This document shows positions 24,542 through 61,668 of a stretch of 64,000 nucleotides of DNA, in pieces. The notes beneath the pieces are model-generated. The model was not told the DNA's origin and made no database searches. It saw only the letters and a list, made by a program, of their open reading frames with translations. Source of the DNA: Parabacteroides sp. GTDB taxonomy: Bacteria > Bacteroidota > Bacteroidia > Bacteroidales > Tannerellaceae. Where the stretch lies: positions 1-64,000 of the forward strand of contig JAFUOJ010000020.1 in NCBI GenBank assembly GCA_017481945.1. Reading direction: 5' to 3'. The stretch's first letter is position 1. Each line of letters opens with the position of its first letter. Both the position numbers and the translations under genes were made by a program.

Positions 24542-24568
24542 GTTATGTTTGTGTAAGGGTGTTTTAAT

Positions 24569-24618
24569 AAAAAAGAATAGCAGTTGTCACTAATGAATGG
24601 CAACTGCTATTCTTTTTT
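24569..24618. terminator. Bidirectional terminator
   Basis: AAAAGAATAGCAGTTG pairs perfectly with CAACTGCTATTCTTTT, between the LuxR gene and the convergent WYL pseudogene. Confidence 0.85.
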
Positions 24619-24627
24619 TATTGAAAT

Positions 24628-27108: not shown

Positions 27109-27240
27109 TAAAGTGCAGATAATAAAAAGGTAGGTTACTATTCATGATACTATGGAAGGGTGTATAAAATAGAAAGAGGTCGGTCAAATTATGACTGTCC
27201 ATTTATTTTCTTTTGCGTAGAGAATTTAAACCGTATAAAG

Positions 27241-28782
27241 ATGGAAGTAATAGTGAAAAAACAGATAAGTTCTTTATTAAAGAAAATGAATGAAGGAATT
27301 TGGGAGAAAGAACAGATTATTGCTTTAAGTTTACTGTGTAGCGTTACTGGTGAAAGTATTTTCCTTTTAGGACCTCCGGGAACGGCTAAGAGTTTGGTTG
27401 CACGAAGGCTTAAAGAAATTTTTAAGGATAAAATATCTTTTGAATATTTAATGTCTCGATTTAGTACCCCGGATGAAATTTTTGGTCCTGTTTCTATCTC
27501 TAAATTGAAAAATGAAGATGTTTATGAGCGAAGAACAGAAAGATATCTTCCTTCTGCTACAATTGTTTTTTTGGATGAGATTTGGAAGGCAGGACCTGCT
27601 ATTCAAAATGCCCTACTTACTGCTATCAATGAAAAGATTTATCAGAACGGAACTGAAACGATTCATTTACCAATGAAAGGATTGATTGCGGCTTCTAATG
27701 AGTTACCCAAAGAAGATGAAGGATTAGAAGCGTTATGGGATCGTTTTTTAGTTCGGGTTGTCTCTAATTGTATATCGAATGAAAAGACCTTTTATAAAAT
27801 GTTACAACAAAGGCAATTGGCCGCTGTGAATATTTCTGAGGATTTATGTATTACGAATGAAAAATATGAGACTTGGCAGAGACAGATAGAATCCATAGAA
27901 ATTCCGGAAACAATATTGAAGATGATTACATTAGTACGAGGAGGACTTAAAGAGATTTCAAAAGGAGAGAATGTTGCTCCTTTTGATTATTATATATCGG
28001 ATCGTCGATGGAAAAAGATTGTTCATTTATTACAGGCTTCTGCTTTTTTGAATGATTGTTCTTGTATAGATCTTTCTGATTTATATCTGTTGGTTCATAC
28101 GTTATGGAATCAAGTAGATTGTATCATGGTTGTATGGAAACTAGTGGTGGATAGTTTTTTTAATGATATAGATAAAAAGTTGGATAGTATGGAAAAAGAA
28201 TTGGAAGCAATGAGTCAATCTCTTTTAAATACAGAAATTACAAGTATGGAGTCTGAATATCGAATCTATAATTATTTCTATTTGAAAGTTCTTGATTATC
28301 CTGGGAAAGATTGCTATATATTCATGTCTGATTATAAGCATCTTGATTTCAATACTTATACGGATGGAATAATTTATTGGGATGATATACAGAATGCTTA
28401 TTTGATTCGACGGATTGATACCTCTCAACCTTTTTCTGGTATTAGTTCTACTAAAAATCTTCAAACAGTAAAATTACGTAAGTGTCCTGGATGGATTGAT
28501 GTGAATGGTCATAGTTATCTCATTGAAAAGGGAAATACGAAAACGGAAAGATATGATATAAGGAAACTGGAATGTGAAAAAAATTTGGAGCTGACAGAGA
28601 TTGAAAAGGTATTAGCTTCTGAAAGTGAAAAATTAAAAGATAGAATAGAACTCTTTAAAAGTAATTTGTTTATAGCTTCAGATGATTTCAAACAAGTAAA
28701 AAAGAGGGCTGATAAACGACATAAACGAATCAATGAATTGGAGATAAAAAGAAGTAGTTTATTGGAATCTGCAGTAAAGTGA
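27241..28782 (+). CDS. ravA: MoxR-type AAA+ ATPase RavA-like
   Basis: 513 residues from ATG 27241 (an upstream in-frame ATG at 27160 lacks homology). Walker A GPPGTAKS at 44-51, Walker B IVFLDE at 108-113, sensor-type 'LIAASNELPKEDEGLEALWDRF'. The C-terminal half holds the lid and a long coiled region. RavA works with the VWA protein ViaA in a MoxR-VWA chaperone pair. The next gene is viaA, overlapping by the leader only, and it is interrupted by the prophage, so RavA here has probably lost its partner. Confidence 0.85.
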   Translation: MEVIVKKQISSLLKKMNEGIWEKEQIIALSLLCSVTGESIFLLGPPGTAKSLVARRLKEIFKDKISFEYLMSRFSTPDEIFGPVSISKLKNEDVYERRTERYLPSATIVFLDEIWKAGPAIQNALLTAINEKIYQNGTETIHLPMKGLIAASNELPKEDEGLEALWDRFLVRVVSNCISNEKTFYKMLQQRQLAAVNISEDLCITNEKYETWQRQIESIEIPETILKMITLVRGGLKEISKGENVAPFDYYISDRRWKKIVHLLQASAFLNDCSCIDLSDLYLLVHTLWNQVDCIMVVWKLVVDSFFNDIDKKLDSMEKELEAMSQSLLNTEITSMESEYRIYNYFYLKVLDYPGKDCYIFMSDYKHLDFNTYTDGIIYWDDIQNAYLIRRIDTSQPFSGISSTKNLQTVKLRKCPGWIDVNGHSYLIEKGNTKTERYDIRKLECEKNLELTEIEKVLASESEKLKDRIELFKSNLFIASDDFKQVKKRADKRHKRINELEIKRSSLLESAVK

Positions 28783-29743: not shown

Positions 29744-30006
29744 ATGGGTTTAATTTCGGTTTACTTTTGAGGGTAAAAGGGTAGGGGGTAAGTTTACTCC
29801 TGCTTTAATTATAAGGGCTGTAGATTTGCGTCTGCGGCCTTTTTTGTATTGTGGTGGTAAAACCCTTTGTAAATGCGTTCTGGGGCTGTTTTAGGGGCTT
29901 ATTGGGGCTTCTTTCTATGCTTATTTGAATGGTCTTTTAATTCCGCTTTAAGCCTGTTGTAATGGGGTAGGGTGGGGGAGTACCTAAAATGTCCATTTTG
30001 GGGTTT

Positions 30007-55282: not shown

Positions 55283-56764
55283 ATGGCTTTTACAAGTGAT
55301 GAAGAAACCAGACTGAGGACGATGCTCAGTGCCTTTGAATCCGGTCAGCAGATTGACGATCTCGACCTTGCCACGAATGAAATCCAGGACAAGGAAATAG
55401 AGGTCTTTGACAAGACTACCGGTGCTTCCGGACGTATGGGTATCCGTGATGCGGTAAACATGGCCAATGCCCCATATTTTGCCCGTGTCTGGAACCTTGA
55501 CAATTCAACCCCGACGGCTGCCACATGGGCAGGCAGCCTTGAATTCGGTCGTAACCTTCCGGATGAACTCGGTCTCGGCTGTTATCTCGTGAAGAATGAC
55601 CACAGCCGCAGGAAACTTGATCCGACCAACCATTACCGTTTTGCCAACGGTGAAACCGCCAAACTGGACGGCAGTATGGGGCATTACCAATGGGGTTGGG
55701 GCAAGAAGTTCTACCTTGCGTTCTGGACGGTCGGCCGTCTTTTCTACAAGGCTGTGTCGCTTTCCCCTATACCGGGCCAATACAACTATTGCATTCCTGT
55801 TGGCAGTATGTCCGCTGCCGGTCATGCCTGTATGGAACGCAGTACGGGTACTTTGGTAAGCTATGTCAATGAAGACGCGGATTATCGCGGCGGCAATAAC
55901 AATGCCGATTATGACGGCACTTACCGGACTTTCTGCGGCAAGGCTGTAACGGCCATAGCCAATGAAACTGCCCGTGCTGCCGCCCGAAAGAACGGCACGG
56001 GCTGGCTTGGCGGTACCATGCGGCACGGTTTCGTCGTTGCGGTATTGTTTGAAATTATTTTCGGTACCAGTAATGTACAGGCTGCCTATAACTCTTCCAA
56101 AGACAGTGACGGTTTGTATCAAGGTGGGCTTGGTACCGGTGTTACAACCTGGGACTGGACTTCCTGGAGTAATTATAACGGAAATTACCCATTCCTTCCG
56201 ACGAGTGCAGGTGTTGAGCTGGGTGATTCCTGCGGTATATCCAACTATGAAGTGCTTGGTGAGGACGGCAGCGTCGTCTATACCGCCCCCGTTCCGGTAT
56301 TCTTCGGTTTGAAGAACATGCACGGCTATCTGTGGCGTCTTCAGGATGACGAGTTCGCGAAAATAAACGAGGATACTTCCGTAACCCATCTTGTCGCCCC
56401 GTCCATTTATGGAACTTGGACTTGTGGCGTTGAAACGGGTATGGTCGCTTATTCCACTTCTCCGACTCAAACAAGCGGCAGCTATATCAAGAAGGTCAGT
56501 TATGACCATCTCGAACTGTTCCCGACAGAAGTCGGCGGTACGGCGAGTACCTGGCATTGTGATATGTTCTGGAACAATTCCGGTCTTACTTCCGGCTTCC
56601 GTCTGGTGCTGCGTGGTTGTAGTGCGAACAACGGTTCCAATTCGGGCGTTTTCGACGTCAATGTGAACAATGCTGTCTCGAATTCCAATGCGAACATCGG
56701 CTCGCCTCTCAACTTTGAAGACATTACAACGGGGGATGGGGCCTCGCCCCATGGCGGAACATGA
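55283..56764 (+). CDS. Receptor-binding protein, probable DGR target (C-type-lectin-like C-terminus)
   Basis: 493 residues. The final 150 residues show a DGR variable-protein pattern: 'GFRLVLRGCSANNGSNSGVF' then 'NNAVSNSNANIGSPLNFED'. The 'RGG..NNGS.AGVF' and 'NN..SNSN.NIG' text with many AAC/AAT codons is what variable repeats of Bacteroides DGR targets look like, in a formylglycine-enzyme/C-type-lectin fold. It should sit at the tail tip and choose the host surface receptor. A perfect hairpin lies at the 3' end of the gene. The stop is TGA at 56762; the frame reopens after it for 35 codons. Confidence 0.75.
   Translation: MAFTSDEETRLRTMLSAFESGQQIDDLDLATNEIQDKEIEVFDKTTGASGRMGIRDAVNMANAPYFARVWNLDNSTPTAATWAGSLEFGRNLPDELGLGCYLVKNDHSRRKLDPTNHYRFANGETAKLDGSMGHYQWGWGKKFYLAFWTVGRLFYKAVSLSPIPGQYNYCIPVGSMSAAGHACMERSTGTLVSYVNEDADYRGGNNNADYDGTYRTFCGKAVTAIANETARAAARKNGTGWLGGTMRHGFVVAVLFEIIFGTSNVQAAYNSSKDSDGLYQGGLGTGVTTWDWTSWSNYNGNYPFLPTSAGVELGDSCGISNYEVLGEDGSVVYTAPVPVFFGLKNMHGYLWRLQDDEFAKINEDTSVTHLVAPSIYGTWTCGVETGMVAYSTSPTQTSGSYIKKVSYDHLELFPTEVGGTASTWHCDMFWNNSGLTSGFRLVLRGCSANNGSNSGVFDVNVNNAVSNSNANIGSPLNFEDITTGDGASPHGGT
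56600..56735 (+). repeat. Probable DGR variable repeat
   Basis: Codes for the Asn/Ser-rich C-terminal segment. Eleven Asn codons occur within about 35 codons. I could not find a matching template repeat anywhere in the prophage by eye. Confidence 0.55.
56736..56752 (+). promoter_or_regulatory. DGR target hairpin
   Basis: ATGGGGC, loop CTC, GCCCCAT: a perfect 7-bp GC-rich stem directly after the variable region. DGR targets such as Bordetella phage BPP-1 mtd need a hairpin at this place for retrohoming. Confidence 0.65.
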
Positions 56765-56833
56765 ACTGGGGTGGAAGTACCGGTAGACCGGCCATGCCGG
56801 GCCGACGGTAACGAAACCACAAGAAAAGCAGAC

Positions 56834-56870
56834 TTTGACACTGTTTTTAGACACTGAAAATTTGACACTG
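56834..56870 (+). repeat. Repeated TTTGACACTG in the RT leader
   Basis: TTTGACACTGTT occurs at 56834 and 56861, 27 bases apart, with GACACTG between them at 56850. All lie within 40 bases of the RT start codon, so they may be binding sites or form alternative RNA pairs with TTTT/AAAA. Confidence 0.55.
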
Positions 56871-56872
56871 TT

Positions 56873-58039
56873 ATGAAACGTAGAGGACACATTTCTCCGC
56901 TGATTGAGACAATGCGGAACTTTGAACTTGCCTATGACGGATTTTCCGAGGACAAACGTTCCCGGAACTCCGTCCACGAGTTCGAGTCCGGTTTGTCTGC
57001 CAGGCTTGAATCGCTACTCCAAGCCTACGCCAATGAAACCTGGCATACTTCCCCCTATCGGAATGAGACCATCCATGAACGTAAGACAAGGGTCATCAGC
57101 AAGCTCCCCATTGCCGACCATGTAATCCAGTGGGCTGCCTGCCTTCATGTGGAACCGCTTCTTTGCGATACCTTCATCCGACGGAGCTGTTCATGTGTCA
57201 AGGGACGTGGAACCCATGATTTTGTAGACCTGCTCAGGAAAGACATGCAGGACAACAAGGGGACATATTACTATGTCCAGCTTGATGCACACCATTTCTT
57301 CCAGCAAATCCGGCATGACCTCAAGAAGCGGCGTGTCCGGACGAAGATAAAGGATCCCAAGCTGCTCCGTTTCCTGGATGAGTTTATTGACAGCTATTAT
57401 CAAGGCCTCCCTTTGGGTGTGAAGATTTCACAGATACTTGCCAATTTCTTCCTAGCCGGTTTTGACCATGAAGCCATTGCCCTGTTCCGTATCCGTGATG
57501 ACAGGGACAAAATGGCCTATTGGTGCGACCGTTATGTAACGGACAGTTTCGTCACTTGCCGGACAAGGGAACAGGCGGAGGAACTTTCCAAAGGTGTAGC
57601 CTACATGAAGGCCAAATTTGAACGTTATGTGAGCGAGGGATTGAGGCATTACAGCCGTTTTGCCGACAATATCGTCATCCAGCATGAGGACAAGACCTTC
57701 CTCCATATCGTTACCGAGATGGCAATCATGGTACTTGCCCGTGATTATTACATCGATGTGAACAAGGACTGGAATGTACGCCCCGTCCATAACGGGGGTA
57801 TTGATGTATGCGGTTATGTGTCCTATCATGACCACCGTCGGTTGCGTAAGCGTAACAAGGTGGCTTTGTGCCGTCAAGTGGCCAAGTACAGGAAGAAAGG
57901 CCTTTCTCCGGAGGAAATCCGTTTGAAATGTGCCAGCCGTATCGGTTTTGCCACCCATGCGGATTGCAGGAACTTATTAAGGAAATTAGATATAAATATG
58001 GAAAAGAGACTTGGAACGGTAATAAGAACCGTAAAGTGA
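56873..58039 (+). CDS. DGR-type reverse transcriptase
   Basis: 388 residues. RT motif text: 'SCVKGRGTHDFV' (108-118), catalytic Asp138 in VQLDAHHFF, motif 4 LPLGVKISQ (179-187; LGxxxSQ is the mark of DGR enzymes), motif 5 RFADNIVI (262-269), and 'GGIDVCGYVS' (308-317). The usual YxDD is FADN, so the second Asp is Asn. About 60 extra residues separate motifs 4 and 5. It would copy the template RNA into mutated cDNA for the target gene 109 bases upstream. No Avd accessory gene is recognised. Confidence 0.75.
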   Translation: MKRRGHISPLIETMRNFELAYDGFSEDKRSRNSVHEFESGLSARLESLLQAYANETWHTSPYRNETIHERKTRVISKLPIADHVIQWAACLHVEPLLCDTFIRRSCSCVKGRGTHDFVDLLRKDMQDNKGTYYYVQLDAHHFFQQIRHDLKKRRVRTKIKDPKLLRFLDEFIDSYYQGLPLGVKISQILANFFLAGFDHEAIALFRIRDDRDKMAYWCDRYVTDSFVTCRTREQAEELSKGVAYMKAKFERYVSEGLRHYSRFADNIVIQHEDKTFLHIVTEMAIMVLARDYYIDVNKDWNVRPVHNGGIDVCGYVSYHDHRRLRKRNKVALCRQVAKYRKKGLSPEEIRLKCASRIGFATHADCRNLLRKLDINMEKRLGTVIRTVK

Positions 58040-58512
58040 ACATCCCTTTCAAGGGTATGCGTTTTGACCAGAAAAGGGCTTTCTCTGAAATCGTCTGCAA
58101 GGACGGGGAGGACGAAAGCAAGTACAAGATCCTTCTGATTGATTTTGCTGTGGAAGACAGCAAGGTCGAAAAGGAAGATGTCATAGTCGAGGTGCCGGAC
58201 GGCAACGGCGGTACCCGCTCAGAACGGCAGACCCGTCCGAAGAAATGCCTTGTAATCCGTTACAAGCGTATTCTGAAGACGGTCGTACAGACTTCCGTTG
58301 ATGGCGAAGAAACGGAAATCTACGAGTTTGAAAAGGAGAAAGACAAGAACGGTAATCTTACGGCCAGAGAGGCGGAGTATTACTCTTATACCGGAAGCAC
58401 GGTCATGTTGGAACAAGCCGGTAATGACTTCATGAAGGAAGATTTGCCTTGTCCGACCGTGATAACGGAATTTACGAACAAGTTAAACAAGAAATTCTAT
58501 AAATTCACTTGA
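58036..58512 (+). CDS. Hypothetical protein coupled to the reverse transcriptase
   Basis: 158 residues from GTG 58036, which overlaps the RT stop (GTGA), giving translational coupling; an internal ATG at 58054 is the alternative. 'VNIPFKGMRFDQKRAFSEIV', many Lys/Glu, and 'RPKKCLVIRYKRILKTVVQTS'. No family recognised. Too long and of different composition to be a normal Avd protein, but its tight coupling suggests a role with the RT or tail. Confidence 0.65.
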   Translation: MNIPFKGMRFDQKRAFSEIVCKDGEDESKYKILLIDFAVEDSKVEKEDVIVEVPDGNGGTRSERQTRPKKCLVIRYKRILKTVVQTSVDGEETEIYEFEKEKDKNGNLTAREAEYYSYTGSTVMLEQAGNDFMKEDLPCPTVITEFTNKLNKKFYKFT

Positions 58513-58513
58513 T

Positions 58514-58912
58514 ATGAACAAAGCGATTTATACAGAACCGAGAACATTTGAAAAGTACGATGACAAGCGTTACATGGTGTATTTGAACGAGGAGATTATC
58601 CCTGACTATGTACCGGAAGTAATGCAGTCGGAGCAAGTACCTGAGCCTATAACCGCCTATGCCTATACCGGTACGGAGGTTGACGGTGGTACGTTGGTAG
58701 AAACAACCTCGTCAGACCGTGATTCGCTGATAAACGGTATCATTCGAAGCCGTTATACGCAATCAGAGGAGGACGCAATCAAGACACATCAGATAGAGTT
58801 GCTACGCAATTCCGGCATAGAGAAAGCCGCCGATTATGAAGCTGAGTGGATTGAATTCAATGCAGTCCGTGAAATGGCAAAGTCAACAGTTGACGGCTGG
58901 TTGAACTTATGA
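58514..58912 (+). CDS. Hypothetical protein, possibly tail fibre assembly
   Basis: 132 residues, acidic: 'NKAIYTEPRTFEKYDDKRYMVYLNEEIIPDYVPEVM' and a helical end 'IIRSRYTQSEEDAIKTHQIELLRNS'. The end resembles fibre-assembly chaperones found after fibre genes. One base after the preceding stop. It closes the rightward structural operon. Confidence 0.55.
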   Translation: MNKAIYTEPRTFEKYDDKRYMVYLNEEIIPDYVPEVMQSEQVPEPITAYAYTGTEVDGGTLVETTSSDRDSLINGIIRSRYTQSEEDAIKTHQIELLRNSGIEKAADYEAEWIEFNAVREMAKSTVDGWLNL

Positions 58913-58934
58913 CAATCTCTTTCGGGGGGGGGAG

Positions 58935-59065
58935 GAAATAAAAAAGCCCCCGGCCTGTTAATATAGACGCCAATCATTTATTAACAAAATAACCCAAGTA
59001 GTGCGCAACCGGGGGCGATGCCCTCTGTCACACTACTTGGGTTATTTTGTTCATAAATGATTGGC
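58935..59065 (-). ncRNA. Candidate structured RNA with 35-bp hairpin and loop-tail complementarity
   Basis: Arms 58969-59003 and 59031-59065 are complementary at 34 of 35 positions, with a 27-base loop (59004-59030). On the minus strand TACTTTTG (59070-59077) is an exact -7 box, placing the RNA start at the first arm. After the hairpin comes CCGGGGGC then TTTTTT (about 58941-58953), a terminator whose 5' half would be GCCCCCGG in the hairpin loop. Hence the loop and the tail are complementary over 8 bases, a pseudoknot or terminator switch. Length about 130 nt; no coding potential. Confidence 0.6.
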
Positions 59066-59069
59066 AGTG

Positions 59070-59077
59070 CAAAAGTA
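59070..59077 (-). promoter_or_regulatory. -7 box for the candidate structured RNA
   Basis: TACTTTTG on the minus strand, ending five bases before the hairpin. No clear -33 TTTG is seen upstream. Confidence 0.5.
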
Positions 59078-59092
59078 ATAAAATGATTGGAT

Positions 59093-59335
59093 ATGACTGT
59101 ATTTGAAATACTTAAATTTAACAGGGAACTGATAAATCGGCTTTGTAGGATAGGATTCAAGCCGGAAGATTGCCGTTTTATAGACTTATATTCGGATTAC
59201 GAACGGATGAAGAACGCTGGTGAGAAAGTAACCTATATCGTCAGCCATCTTTCTTCCAAGTATGGGATTAGCGAGCGCAAGGTCTATGATGTGAAAAAAC
59301 GTTTTGAAAAGCACTGCACGACTGATGCAGTGTGA
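59093..59335 (+). CDS. Small putative HTH regulator
   Basis: 80 residues from ATG 59093 (TTG 59087 adds two). 'LFNRELINRLCRIGFKPEDCRFIDLYSDYERMKNAGEK' like text leads to 'VSHLSSKYGISERKVYDVKKRFEKHC', a probable helix-turn-helix similar in form to the Mor/C activators of Mu. It stands alone between the hairpin and the next promoter, so it may activate the late genes. The region before the ATG (AAAATGATTGG) can pair with the hairpin's outer arm. Confidence 0.55.
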   Translation: MTVFEILKFNRELINRLCRIGFKPEDCRFIDLYSDYERMKNAGEKVTYIVSHLSSKYGISERKVYDVKKRFEKHCTTDAV

Positions 59336-60041: not shown

Positions 60042-60899
60042 ATGAGAAAGCAGTATTTATCGGCCCCCCTTCCTTTTGTAGGACAGAAACGCATGTTTGC
60101 GAAAGAGTTTATCAAGGTATTGGAACAATTCCCCGAAGATACCGTATTCGTGGATTTGTTCGGTGGTTCCGGACTGTTGTCCCATATCACCAAATGCCAA
60201 AAACCGGGCGCAACGGTCATATATAATGACTTCGACAATTACCGGAAGCGTCTGGAAAATATACCGAACACCAATGCGTTATTGGCGGAACTCCGTGAGA
60301 TTGTAAAAGATGTCCCGAGGCATAAACCAATTAAGGGGAATGTGAGGGAAAAGGTGTTTGAATGTATCAATAGGGCTGAAAAGAAATACGGTTATATTGA
60401 TTTCATTACATTGTCTTCCTCCATTATGTTTTCAATGAAATACAAACTGAGTGTGGAGGAAATGCGTAAGGAAGCCCTTTATAACAACATTCGGACAACG
60501 GACTATCCGTTATGTCTGGATTATTTGGACGGGCTGGTCATTACTTCCTGTGATTACAAGGAGTTGTTCCAACGATACAAGGATGTACCTAATGTGGTGT
60601 TTCTTGTCGATCCCCCTTATTTGAGTACAGAAGTCGGTACCTATAAGATGTATTGGCGAATGTCGGACTATTTGGATGTACTGACAATTTTGGTCGAAAA
60701 GGATTTTGTTTACTTCACGTCAAACAAGTCATCCATTTTGGAATTGTGTGAATGGATTGGTCGGAACAAATCAATCGGCAATCCGTTTGAAGACTGCCGG
60801 AAAGTTGAGTTCAATGCCCACATGAACTACAATGCCAAATACACAGATATGATGCTGTATAAGAAACATGCGGAAACCTTCGGGAAAGAAGTTGCTTAG
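60042..60899 (+). CDS. DNA adenine methylase (Dam/D12 class)
   Basis: 285 residues. 'APLPFVGQKRMFAKEF' is the SAM-binding motif I variant, 'FVDLFGGSGLLSH' continues it, 'YNDFDNYR' follows, and the catalytic DPPY motif is in 'VFLVDPPYLSTEVG'. N6-adenine methylation may protect phage DNA from restriction or control genes. It follows the previous gene after one base. Confidence 0.85.
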   Translation: MRKQYLSAPLPFVGQKRMFAKEFIKVLEQFPEDTVFVDLFGGSGLLSHITKCQKPGATVIYNDFDNYRKRLENIPNTNALLAELREIVKDVPRHKPIKGNVREKVFECINRAEKKYGYIDFITLSSSIMFSMKYKLSVEEMRKEALYNNIRTTDYPLCLDYLDGLVITSCDYKELFQRYKDVPNVVFLVDPPYLSTEVGTYKMYWRMSDYLDVLTILVEKDFVYFTSNKSSILELCEWIGRNKSIGNPFEDCRKVEFNAHMNYNAKYTDMMLYKKHAETFGKEVA

Positions 60900-61079: not shown

Positions 61080-61134
61080 AACATTTCGTTTTTTGAAAAA
61101 AGTCAGTTCGTTTGAAAATGCTGTAACATTTCGT
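61080..61134. repeat. Right-end transposase-site ladder
   Basis: On the minus strand ACGAAATGTT begins at the inferred end (61134), ACGAACTGAC 23 bases in (61111), and ACGAAATGTT again 22 bases further (61089). The regular spacing and inverted motif match three MuA-type sites at Mu's right end. Confidence 0.6.
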
Positions 61135-61139
61135 TTTGC
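61135..61139. repeat. Right copy of 5-bp target duplication (TTTGC)
   Basis: Directly abuts the outermost end motif and is in frame with viaA (F-A codons). Confidence 0.65.
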
Positions 61140-61668
61140 GGATTATACAAGTAAATCACCAAATGTTCAACGAATGAAGACAGAATTACAAAGACAAAAG
61201 GAACCTCGTTTGCAGGAAGGTCCTATCATTATGAGTATAGATACCAGTGCTTCGATGAATGGAACTCCAGAAAAGATAGCTAAATCTATAATGATGCAAA
61301 TTCTTCAAATGGCTAAACAAAAGCATAGAAAGTGCTTTTTGATTACCTATTCAGTTCGATCGCAAACGTTGGAAATCTCTAAGTCTGAACATTGGGAGGA
61401 AGTGAAATCTTTTGTGAAAAATGTTTTTACAGGTGGTACGGATGGCGAGTCTATGCTTGCAGATGTTTTAGAAGCTTTACAAACAGATAACTATTTGATG
61501 GCTGATGTTTTGGTTATTAGCGACTTTGAATTTGAAGAACCGATGAGCAATACTTTAAAGAGAATACAAGAGGAACAGAAAAAAGGAACTCGCTTTTATG
61601 GGCTGCAAATCGGAAACAGTTATAATGTCTATGAAAAGATTCTGAACAAGATTTGGGTTGTAAAATAG
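61140..61668 (+). pseudogene. viaA: 3' part of viaA with VWA domain
   Basis: About 175 codons of the VWA domain: MIDAS 'SIDTSASMNGT' and 'GGTDGES', ending '...KILNKIWVVK'. A TTG at 61093 in prophage DNA could start a short product, reading 'KKVSSFENAVTFRFADY'; 'FRFADY' arises at the junction. Joined to 29623 it restores about 450 residues. It has lost its promoter to the prophage and is probably silent. Confidence 0.8.

Follow-up and report, generated by a model that had tools for sequence, protein, structure and literature searches.

A predicted small RNA gene with a hypervariable stem in Mu-like phages of Bacteroidales

What is encoded by the long inverted repeat between the DGR operon and a small regulator-like gene in a prophage of Parabacteroides sp.? 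The window analysed here spans 64,000 nucleotides (positions 1 to 64,000 of contig JAFUOJ010000020.1, assembly GCA_017481945.1), with frames matching Phage_Mu_F, DUF3164 and an S24-type repressor domain, identifying a Mu-like prophage; no transposase was found among the seven frames scanned, and we call the prophage transposable because of its relatives only. The initial annotation had proposed an undescribed phage RNA, comprising a 34/35-bp hairpin with its own minus-strand −7 box and a terminator built partly from the hairpin loop. The inverted repeat was borne out, with arms of 35 nt (58969-59003 and 59031-59065) that are 97% complementary and 27 nt apart, but in place of a single hairpin there are two stems, P1 and P2, with different evolution. 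The box TACTTTTG precedes the hairpin as described, although the spacer between box and arm is four bases long instead of five. The partner strand of the terminator does lie within the hairpin loop (GCCCCCGG/CCGGGGGC; tail 58946-58953, loop 59009-59016), and the reported six-T end is present as U6 (Table 1).

Folded as the minus strand, the region reaches −66.1 kcal/mol against −31.5 ± 3.9 in 200 shuffles (z −8.9; 0/200 as good), and the plus strand is equally stable (−65.8; z −9.6); since both strands fold far below their shuffles, the fold alone carries no information on the coding strand. Its own genome has just one copy of the RNA, a further hit being the same site read on the opposite strand, and weak R1 matches elsewhere in the window (29794-29893, 18.4 bits, with no loop-tail helix by eye; 24562-24626, 11.5 bits) were taken as chance. 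Beside the terminator is a run of nine G (58924-58932, plus strand), of which many relatives have five, possibly reflecting slippage or an assembly error.

Table 1. Features of the predicted RNA gene and its neighbours (window coordinates)
Feature	Position	Strand	Basis
RNA gene, ~127 nt, P1 to U-tract	58939..59066	-	R1 match 59065-58939, 123.2 bits; fold z −8.9; start inferred from −7 box
−7 box TACTTTTG	59070..59077	-	TAnnTTTG in 48/51 distinct upstreams of relatives
P1 5′ arm GCCAATCATTTAT	59053..59065	-	12 P1 pairs, each with some two-sided change
P1 3′ arm, also inside P4 hairpin loop	58969..58981	-	Pairing in relatives
P2 5′ arm, hypervariable	59031..59043	-	P2 and extension: two-sided changes in 14/15 pairs; 102/518 differences, close pairs
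P2 3′ arm, hypervariable	58991..59003	-	As for P2 5′ arm
L, loop strand GCCCCCGGTT pairing with tail	59007..59016	-	Own score 26.3 vs 17.4 permuted
L′, tail partner GGCCGGGGGC of L, 3′ strand of terminator helix	58946..58955	-	Pairing in relatives
U6 tract	58940..58945	-	Sequence
P4 5′ arm GTTAATA	58979..58985	-	4/5 pairs with two-sided changes; 13.7 vs 9.0 permuted
P4 3′ arm TATTAAC	58957..58963	-	As for P4 5′ arm
79-aa HTH-like protein, divergent from RNA	59096..59335	+	Pfam HTH_28 E 7e-4 (below cut-off); phrog_17790, unknown function
Thymidylate-synthase-like protein (TS), 212 aa	59402..60040	+	PF00303 4e-19
D12-class DNA adenine methyltransferase	60042..60899	+	PF02086 1e-7
132-aa ORF, last before RNA, convergent with RNA	58514..58912	+	No Pfam or PHROG match

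No Rfam 15 family covers the RNA at gathering scores in the window, in 12 relatives or in 12 divergent relatives, in agreement with the claim that it is undescribed; a permissive scan of 58900-59110 returned 20 matches, all below the gathering score and mostly to hairpin models such as miRNAs. No description was found in literature titles and the starts of abstracts, a listing in a supplementary table being possible, nor in the passages available from PMC12135933 and PMC6199706. By comparison of loci, it appears to be a new structured RNA family, widespread in relatives.

Relatives were collected in several ways. A DNA search matched 22 phage records and three plasmid-labelled records, and hits to a pattern of loop and tail numbered at least 117 in contigs of genomes and 88 in those of viruses, with chance matches (Streptomyces and others) in the genome list removed by requiring a −7-like box and a complement between 5′ and 3′ parts. 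Among 681 overlapping raw matches, 245 failed; the filter yielded 175 places and 112 distinct RNAs, 109 of which were kept (three lacked P1 as cut). Alignment A1 holds 60 RNAs out of 74 representatives at 88% identity, the 14 omitted mostly having an extra 5′ hairpin; in many GTCTCAC-type RNAs an additional hairpin, short and rich in GC, separates P1 from the A-rich linker (L050, L058, L070, L107, L110, L137, L154, L179, L207 and others). Seeding by protein, independently of the RNA, gave a minus-strand covariance-model match (E ≤ 0.01) in 72 of the best 80 of 204 TS-like loci and in 67 of the best 80 of 102 methyltransferase loci, and a pattern detector added one locus (L433). Methyltransferases in the best 80 reach down to 38% identity, with the RNA present down to 48%. 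Near copies are frequent, the 67 methyltransferase-seeded loci representing 51 distinct upstream stretches. Set A2 comprised 44 rows, reduced to 41 divergent members by dropping three opposite-strand matches; its covariance model holds the pairs of P1 and P2 and neither L:L′ nor P4, and its sequence positions cover both.

At E 0.001, R1 matched 17/123 genomes of the host's own family (six below 40 bits, one being L247 and five unchecked), 17/393 at order level (L247 and L248 judged false), 7/395 at class level (L282 true; L247, L283 and L284 false) and 3/395 at phylum level (one unchecked), counts to be read with overlapping genome sets, filters that lose weak matches and one uninspected match (G900). 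R1 also scores, more weakly, on the reverse strand of each palindrome, and such matches were left uncounted; the low-scoring matches L247, L248, L251, L283 and L284 were rejected as GC hairpins or other sequence. The L004-type RNA sequence (10 loci) occurs in records of several host genera. Copies in contigs of metagenome-assembled genomes (MAGs) titled Ruminococcus (L035) and Clostridium (L099) reflect either binning errors or hosts outside Bacteroidota.

A covariation search had been suggested as a check, and in relatives the pairing is retained through many two-sided changes, those in the loop-tail helix included. The 39 pairs of A1 (12 in P1, 15 in P2 with its extension, 7 in L:L′ and 5 in P4) have 90.9% of cells paired, against 72.1% when shuffled and 36-44% when slid; 30 show two-sided change, with a score of 0.500 vs 0.174 (0/500). 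Changes recur on both sides of P1, P2 and P4, as in one P2 pair found as AU (15), CG (14), GC (12) and UA (10), and P1 falls into few types among the 109 RNAs (38 GCCAATCA, 25 GTCTCACTTA, 15 ATCTCAC[C/T]TA). L:L′ is nearly invariant in A1, but the search pattern required most of L and L′, and a place passed the filter only with a −7-like box and 7 nt of complementarity linking its 5′ end to its 3′ part; this near-invariance and part of the P1 pairing were therefore selected for. In the A2 members, the loop-tail helix can be drawn in 41/41, in some with other letters (GCCUCCGCUG/CAGCGGAGGC, GGCCAUCGGC/GCCGAUGGCC, GUCCUCCAACG/UGUUGGAGGAC), and the mean score of a loop with its own tail is 26.3 vs 17.4 with permuted tails (0/2000 as high). 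Loop by loop, the own tail ranks in the top 5% of swaps for 18/41, most others being limited by members of the same type; pairing is individually weak and no better than many swaps in L237, L238 and L423. In L008, L:L′ stays paired by way of G-U wobbles. P4 likewise scores 13.7 with its own partner vs 9.0 permuted (0/2000). The structural link between hairpin and terminator drawn by the initial annotation is thus upheld by a helix kept through two-sided changes. G-U cells outnumber A-C cells 170 to 49 overall (without a composition control), an excess favouring the minus strand; it is marked where the P2 extension, P4 and L:L′ are counted together (100 vs 6) and slight in P1 (29 vs 20) and P2 (41 vs 23). 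Comparative alignment shows covarying stems P1, P2 and P4 and a covarying loop-tail helix, and a structured RNA gene almost certainly exists at this locus.

The promoter recurs as well. The Bacteroidales −7 consensus is TAnnTTTG, and of the 51 distinct upstream stretches from methyltransferase-seeded relatives 48 carry this motif (3.9% expected from shuffles), its position varying by no more than seven bases in 46 of them, showing that the minus-strand box ascribed to the RNA is conserved between genomes. On the plus strand, TAnnTTTG occurs in the RNA region of 3/58 loci, matching the shuffle expectation of 2.9, and no promoter of that type is therefore seen for the module itself. At the other end, four or more T occur in the last 12 nt of 34/41 divergent members, directly after the helix. 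Like intrinsic terminators, most members thus have a GC-rich helix followed by a U-tract; unlike them, they draw the 5′ strand of this helix from a different hairpin, whose apical loop contains it, and a pseudoknot results. No simple local hairpin with a short loop was found as terminator among the 41 divergent members, whose helix strands are 43-62 nt apart and enclose the 3′ arms of P2 and P1, plus hairpin P4. Structure and −7 promoter are, as predictions from comparison, well supported. The long inverted repeat, and the position of the RNA in Bacteroides phage p00 (hankyphage) ~2 kb from the right end of the record, could instead suit an element acting as DNA, such as a cruciform, phage end or recombination site; yet a conserved promoter, a usual U-tract, the loop-tail helix, the prevalence of G-U over A-C cells and chromosomal copies away from phage genes make this highly improbable.

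P4 places the 3′ arm of P1 in a loop of 8-17 nt in 38/41 divergent members, and zero nucleotides separate the P1 and P4 3′ arms in L427, L429, L430, L237 and L238. In ordinary pseudoknot geometry a complete P1 and a complete P4 are incompatible without a spacer, and from its lack we infer two alternative folds: P1 and P4 are probably mutually exclusive, and the RNA looks bistable. Such exclusivity would suit a conditional terminator, or attenuator, in which forming or dissolving the loop-tail helix decides leftward read-through. The same could be said of a chromosomal form of the RNA, found in 5/5 genomes of one Bacteroidales family (L240, L241, L243, L245, L246), which ends 19-40 nt (to the first ATG) upstream of a co-oriented small sigma-factor-like gene. 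In the phages, however, minus-strand transcription past the RNA would mostly run antisense to plus-strand frames (55/58), and we regard attenuation as quite improbable. Rubrerythrin is encoded near the chromosomal form and Fur in some loci (Pfam on L240 proteins only). In P1 the chromosomal form resembles two of the phage types by its letters, but not in P2, L or L′. A general role as leader of sigma-factor genes was rejected, 30 loci of sigma homologues giving one GC-repeat match with a detector that found only 7/10 positive controls.

The phage RNA mostly keeps the same company. A match to the HTH, TS or methyltransferase protein lies within 1.5 kb on the divergent side of 165/175 RNA places, and of 131/135 places whose locus spans 1.5 kb (exceptions L176, L074, L140 and L168); the RNA start is 16-69 nt from the methyltransferase start in 16/51 distinct loci. 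The right-end module resembles that of p00 (84% identity for TS, 59% for HTH, 71% for the methyltransferase), and the DGR reverse transcriptase (RT) of p00 is only 29% identical to that of the window. Across phages, the TS-like protein is ~75-90% identical where the adjoining HTH is mostly 40-60%. By analogy, the TS-like protein and the D12 methyltransferase may form a DNA-modification module, a pair that we liken, as an assumption, to the Mu mom region. The RNA had been placed between the DGR operon and a regulator-like gene, and this position stands, but its association is with the HTH/TS/methyltransferase module and not with the DGR. In RT-seeded searches the RNA was present in 8/12 loci; L007, L012 and L018 lacked both module and RNA match, for which reason a link to the DGR was rejected, and L009 ends too early. 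An RT like that of the window lies upstream in 33/52 RNA loci with at least 6 kb of upstream sequence (the search covered that RT type alone). Across these loci, the DGR RT is neither needed nor sufficient for the RNA. Retron msr-msd RNAs are phage-linked and often lie near a reverse transcriptase, and in them an outer stem encloses a long hairpin of variable sequence; unlike them, the RNA here tracks the methyltransferase module, the nearby RT is that of the DGR, and no link to a retron RT of its own was found. Rfam RT-17 and RT-3 occur in the same phages a few kb away, differing in place and strand and without a match to the RNA: RT-17 is at 56740-56835 (plus strand) of the window, flanked by the target gene of the DGR and its RT, and RT-3 is near the RT of hankyphage-type relatives. 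Two frames after the DGR RT (57868-58509 and 58514-58912, plus strand) are kept in close relatives without a Pfam or PHROG match.

Neighbouring frames were assigned crudely, by taking the longest ORF, at 58 loci; these are the 67 methyltransferase-seeded hits less nine presumed copies. To the left of the RNA lies a converging plus-strand frame in 55/58, a minus-strand frame in one and none in two; 40/55 of the converging frames end within 37 nt of the RNA 3′ end. Locus comparison shows the RNA as antisense in the gap between a plus-strand gene and the plus-strand HTH/TS/methyltransferase module.

Of the two stems, P2 is the hypervariable one. Close pairs were defined by flanks at least 88% and at least 85% identical; 20 pairs qualified, and 15 remained once each locus was allowed only one pair. 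Over these 15, P2 differs at 102/518 positions (19.7%), against 229/4867 (4.7%) and 294/4482 (6.6%) in the upstream and downstream flanks, and 29/324 (9.0%), 36/412 (8.7%) and 28/763 (3.7%) in the loop, 5′ side and 3′ side of the RNA. P2 changes are bimodal, with 8-17 in eight pairs and 0-1 in seven, at flanks that are both 86-100% identical. In several pairs with near-identical flanks (13 pairs shown), P2 and the linker are swapped as a block, and between L010 and L075 the RNA difference is almost confined to P2. Pairwise alignment shows P2 being exchanged as a block between close relatives with its arms still complementary. P2 words common to RNAs of different P1 type were seen in 22 pairs (10 between two similar types; without a chance control), and this recurrence suggests that P2 blocks move by recombination. 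It also suits a neutral account of P2 alone, compatible with any function of the RNA, in which a rod of indifferent sequence is remade by template-switch repair and recombination. Template switching at imperfect palindromes gives compensated changes in one step, which would make paired changes cheap; steady drift, however, would not produce two modes at flanks so alike, and we consider neutrality possible but somewhat doubtful. Specification of P2 by the HTH protein was rejected, HTH being 94-98% identical (76/80 to 81/83) in six pairs with P2 replaced; in four further pairs identity is 66/84 to 75/80, partly from start choice.

A guide function of P2 towards another site was set aside, matches elsewhere giving it no support. 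Within their own loci, P2 words of 9-12 nt recur elsewhere within the permuted range, and one P2 13-mer found two places elsewhere in its own genome at one mismatch, where the reversed control found one; neither comparison yields the matches of a variable part that an RNA-guided element would have. This result fits a target on the opposite strand of the same site. Ten groups of loci share an assembly, and coexisting P2s differ in eight and, by a partial copy, in a ninth; given the very high diversity of P2, such differences say little.

We favour, tentatively and short of an even chance, a reading of this locus as a free-standing predicted small RNA gene of a Mu-like Bacteroidales phage group, which would regulate the read-through mRNA of the module as an antisense. 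In the lysogen, the host polymerase would transcribe the gene; the apical loop would pair with the tail, which would end transcription and lock the 3′ end; and the RNA would toggle between P1, a closed rod, and P4, which holds the purine-rich 3′ arm of P1 in a loop. By position, the RNA is complementary to a plus-strand transcript reading through into the modification module, which it may thereby restrain; the converging neighbours and the chance-level plus-strand −7 box fit such a position. P2 would be the specificity part, deciding whose phage transcripts the RNA silences in trans, and its change would thus be rewarded. There are precedents in lambda OOP and similar phage cis-antisense RNAs, which are short, have their own promoter and terminator and lie against an operon. 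The RNA is likewise short, with promoter and terminator, opposite to the gene train and in or near an intergenic gap; unlike OOP, it overlaps the upstream frame by nil or at most six bases, and we know of no covarying knotted fold or hypervariable stem in OOP. In CopA/CopT, RNAI/RNAII and IS10 RNA-OUT, long stem-loop antisense RNAs, changing sequence sets compatibility groups. Such classical antisense RNAs vary in their loops, in contrast to the RNA here, in which the stem varies and the loop builds the terminator. That close relatives share L and differ in the stem is a point against the antisense reading. Another is the G-U excess, which speaks for selection acting on the fold of the minus strand, a fold that plain antisense pairing could do without. 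The chromosomal form, lying in line with a sigma-factor gene, means that antisense control cannot be the only role.

In the main rival, a possible though rather unlikely one, the RNA acts in trans on the host or a rival phage. Here the purine-rich P1 3′ arm in the P4 loop would be a seed or protein-binding site, a presentation seen in nearly all divergent members, and the knotted rod a handle or decoy against RNA-sensing or nuclease defence of the host, with an arms race changing P2. Its own promoter and terminator, the recurrence of some of the few P1 types in chromosomal RNAs that differ in L, L′ and P2, and the spread of the L004-type RNA over several host genera would all suit such a role, and P1 letters common to phages and that host family hint at a trans partner; acting in trans, however, leaves the frequent antisense position before the modification module unexplained. 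A further reading, which we consider speculative and unlikely as a whole, would have a bistable, self-knotting RNA with P2 as a compatibility tag, a cassette that phages would exchange so that resident prophages cannot silence them, creating RNA immunity groups over the protein repressor, and with a domesticated or ancestral chromosomal form controlling a sigma factor. Two contigs with an identical RNA in one MAG (RGIG9024) speak weakly against exclusion based on P2.

The RNA family accompanies most examined loci of a widespread gut-phage module without a matching Rfam entry. If expressed, it would offer a terminator in which loop and tail form a pseudoknot, two covarying folds that may act as a switch, and a stem that outpaces its surroundings in change but stays paired. 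It would also give access to how hankyphage-like prophages control a DNA-modification module.

Around the prophage, a gene for a MoxR-type ATPase (bpMoxR, 27160-28782) lies to the left and a VWA gene (61093-61668) to the right, as if insertion of the prophage, at about 30-61 kb, had separated genes of one MoxR-VWA set. Near its likely right end, AACATTTCGTTTT occurs twice, 45 bases apart (61080-61137), and these copies are perhaps putative transposase-binding sites.
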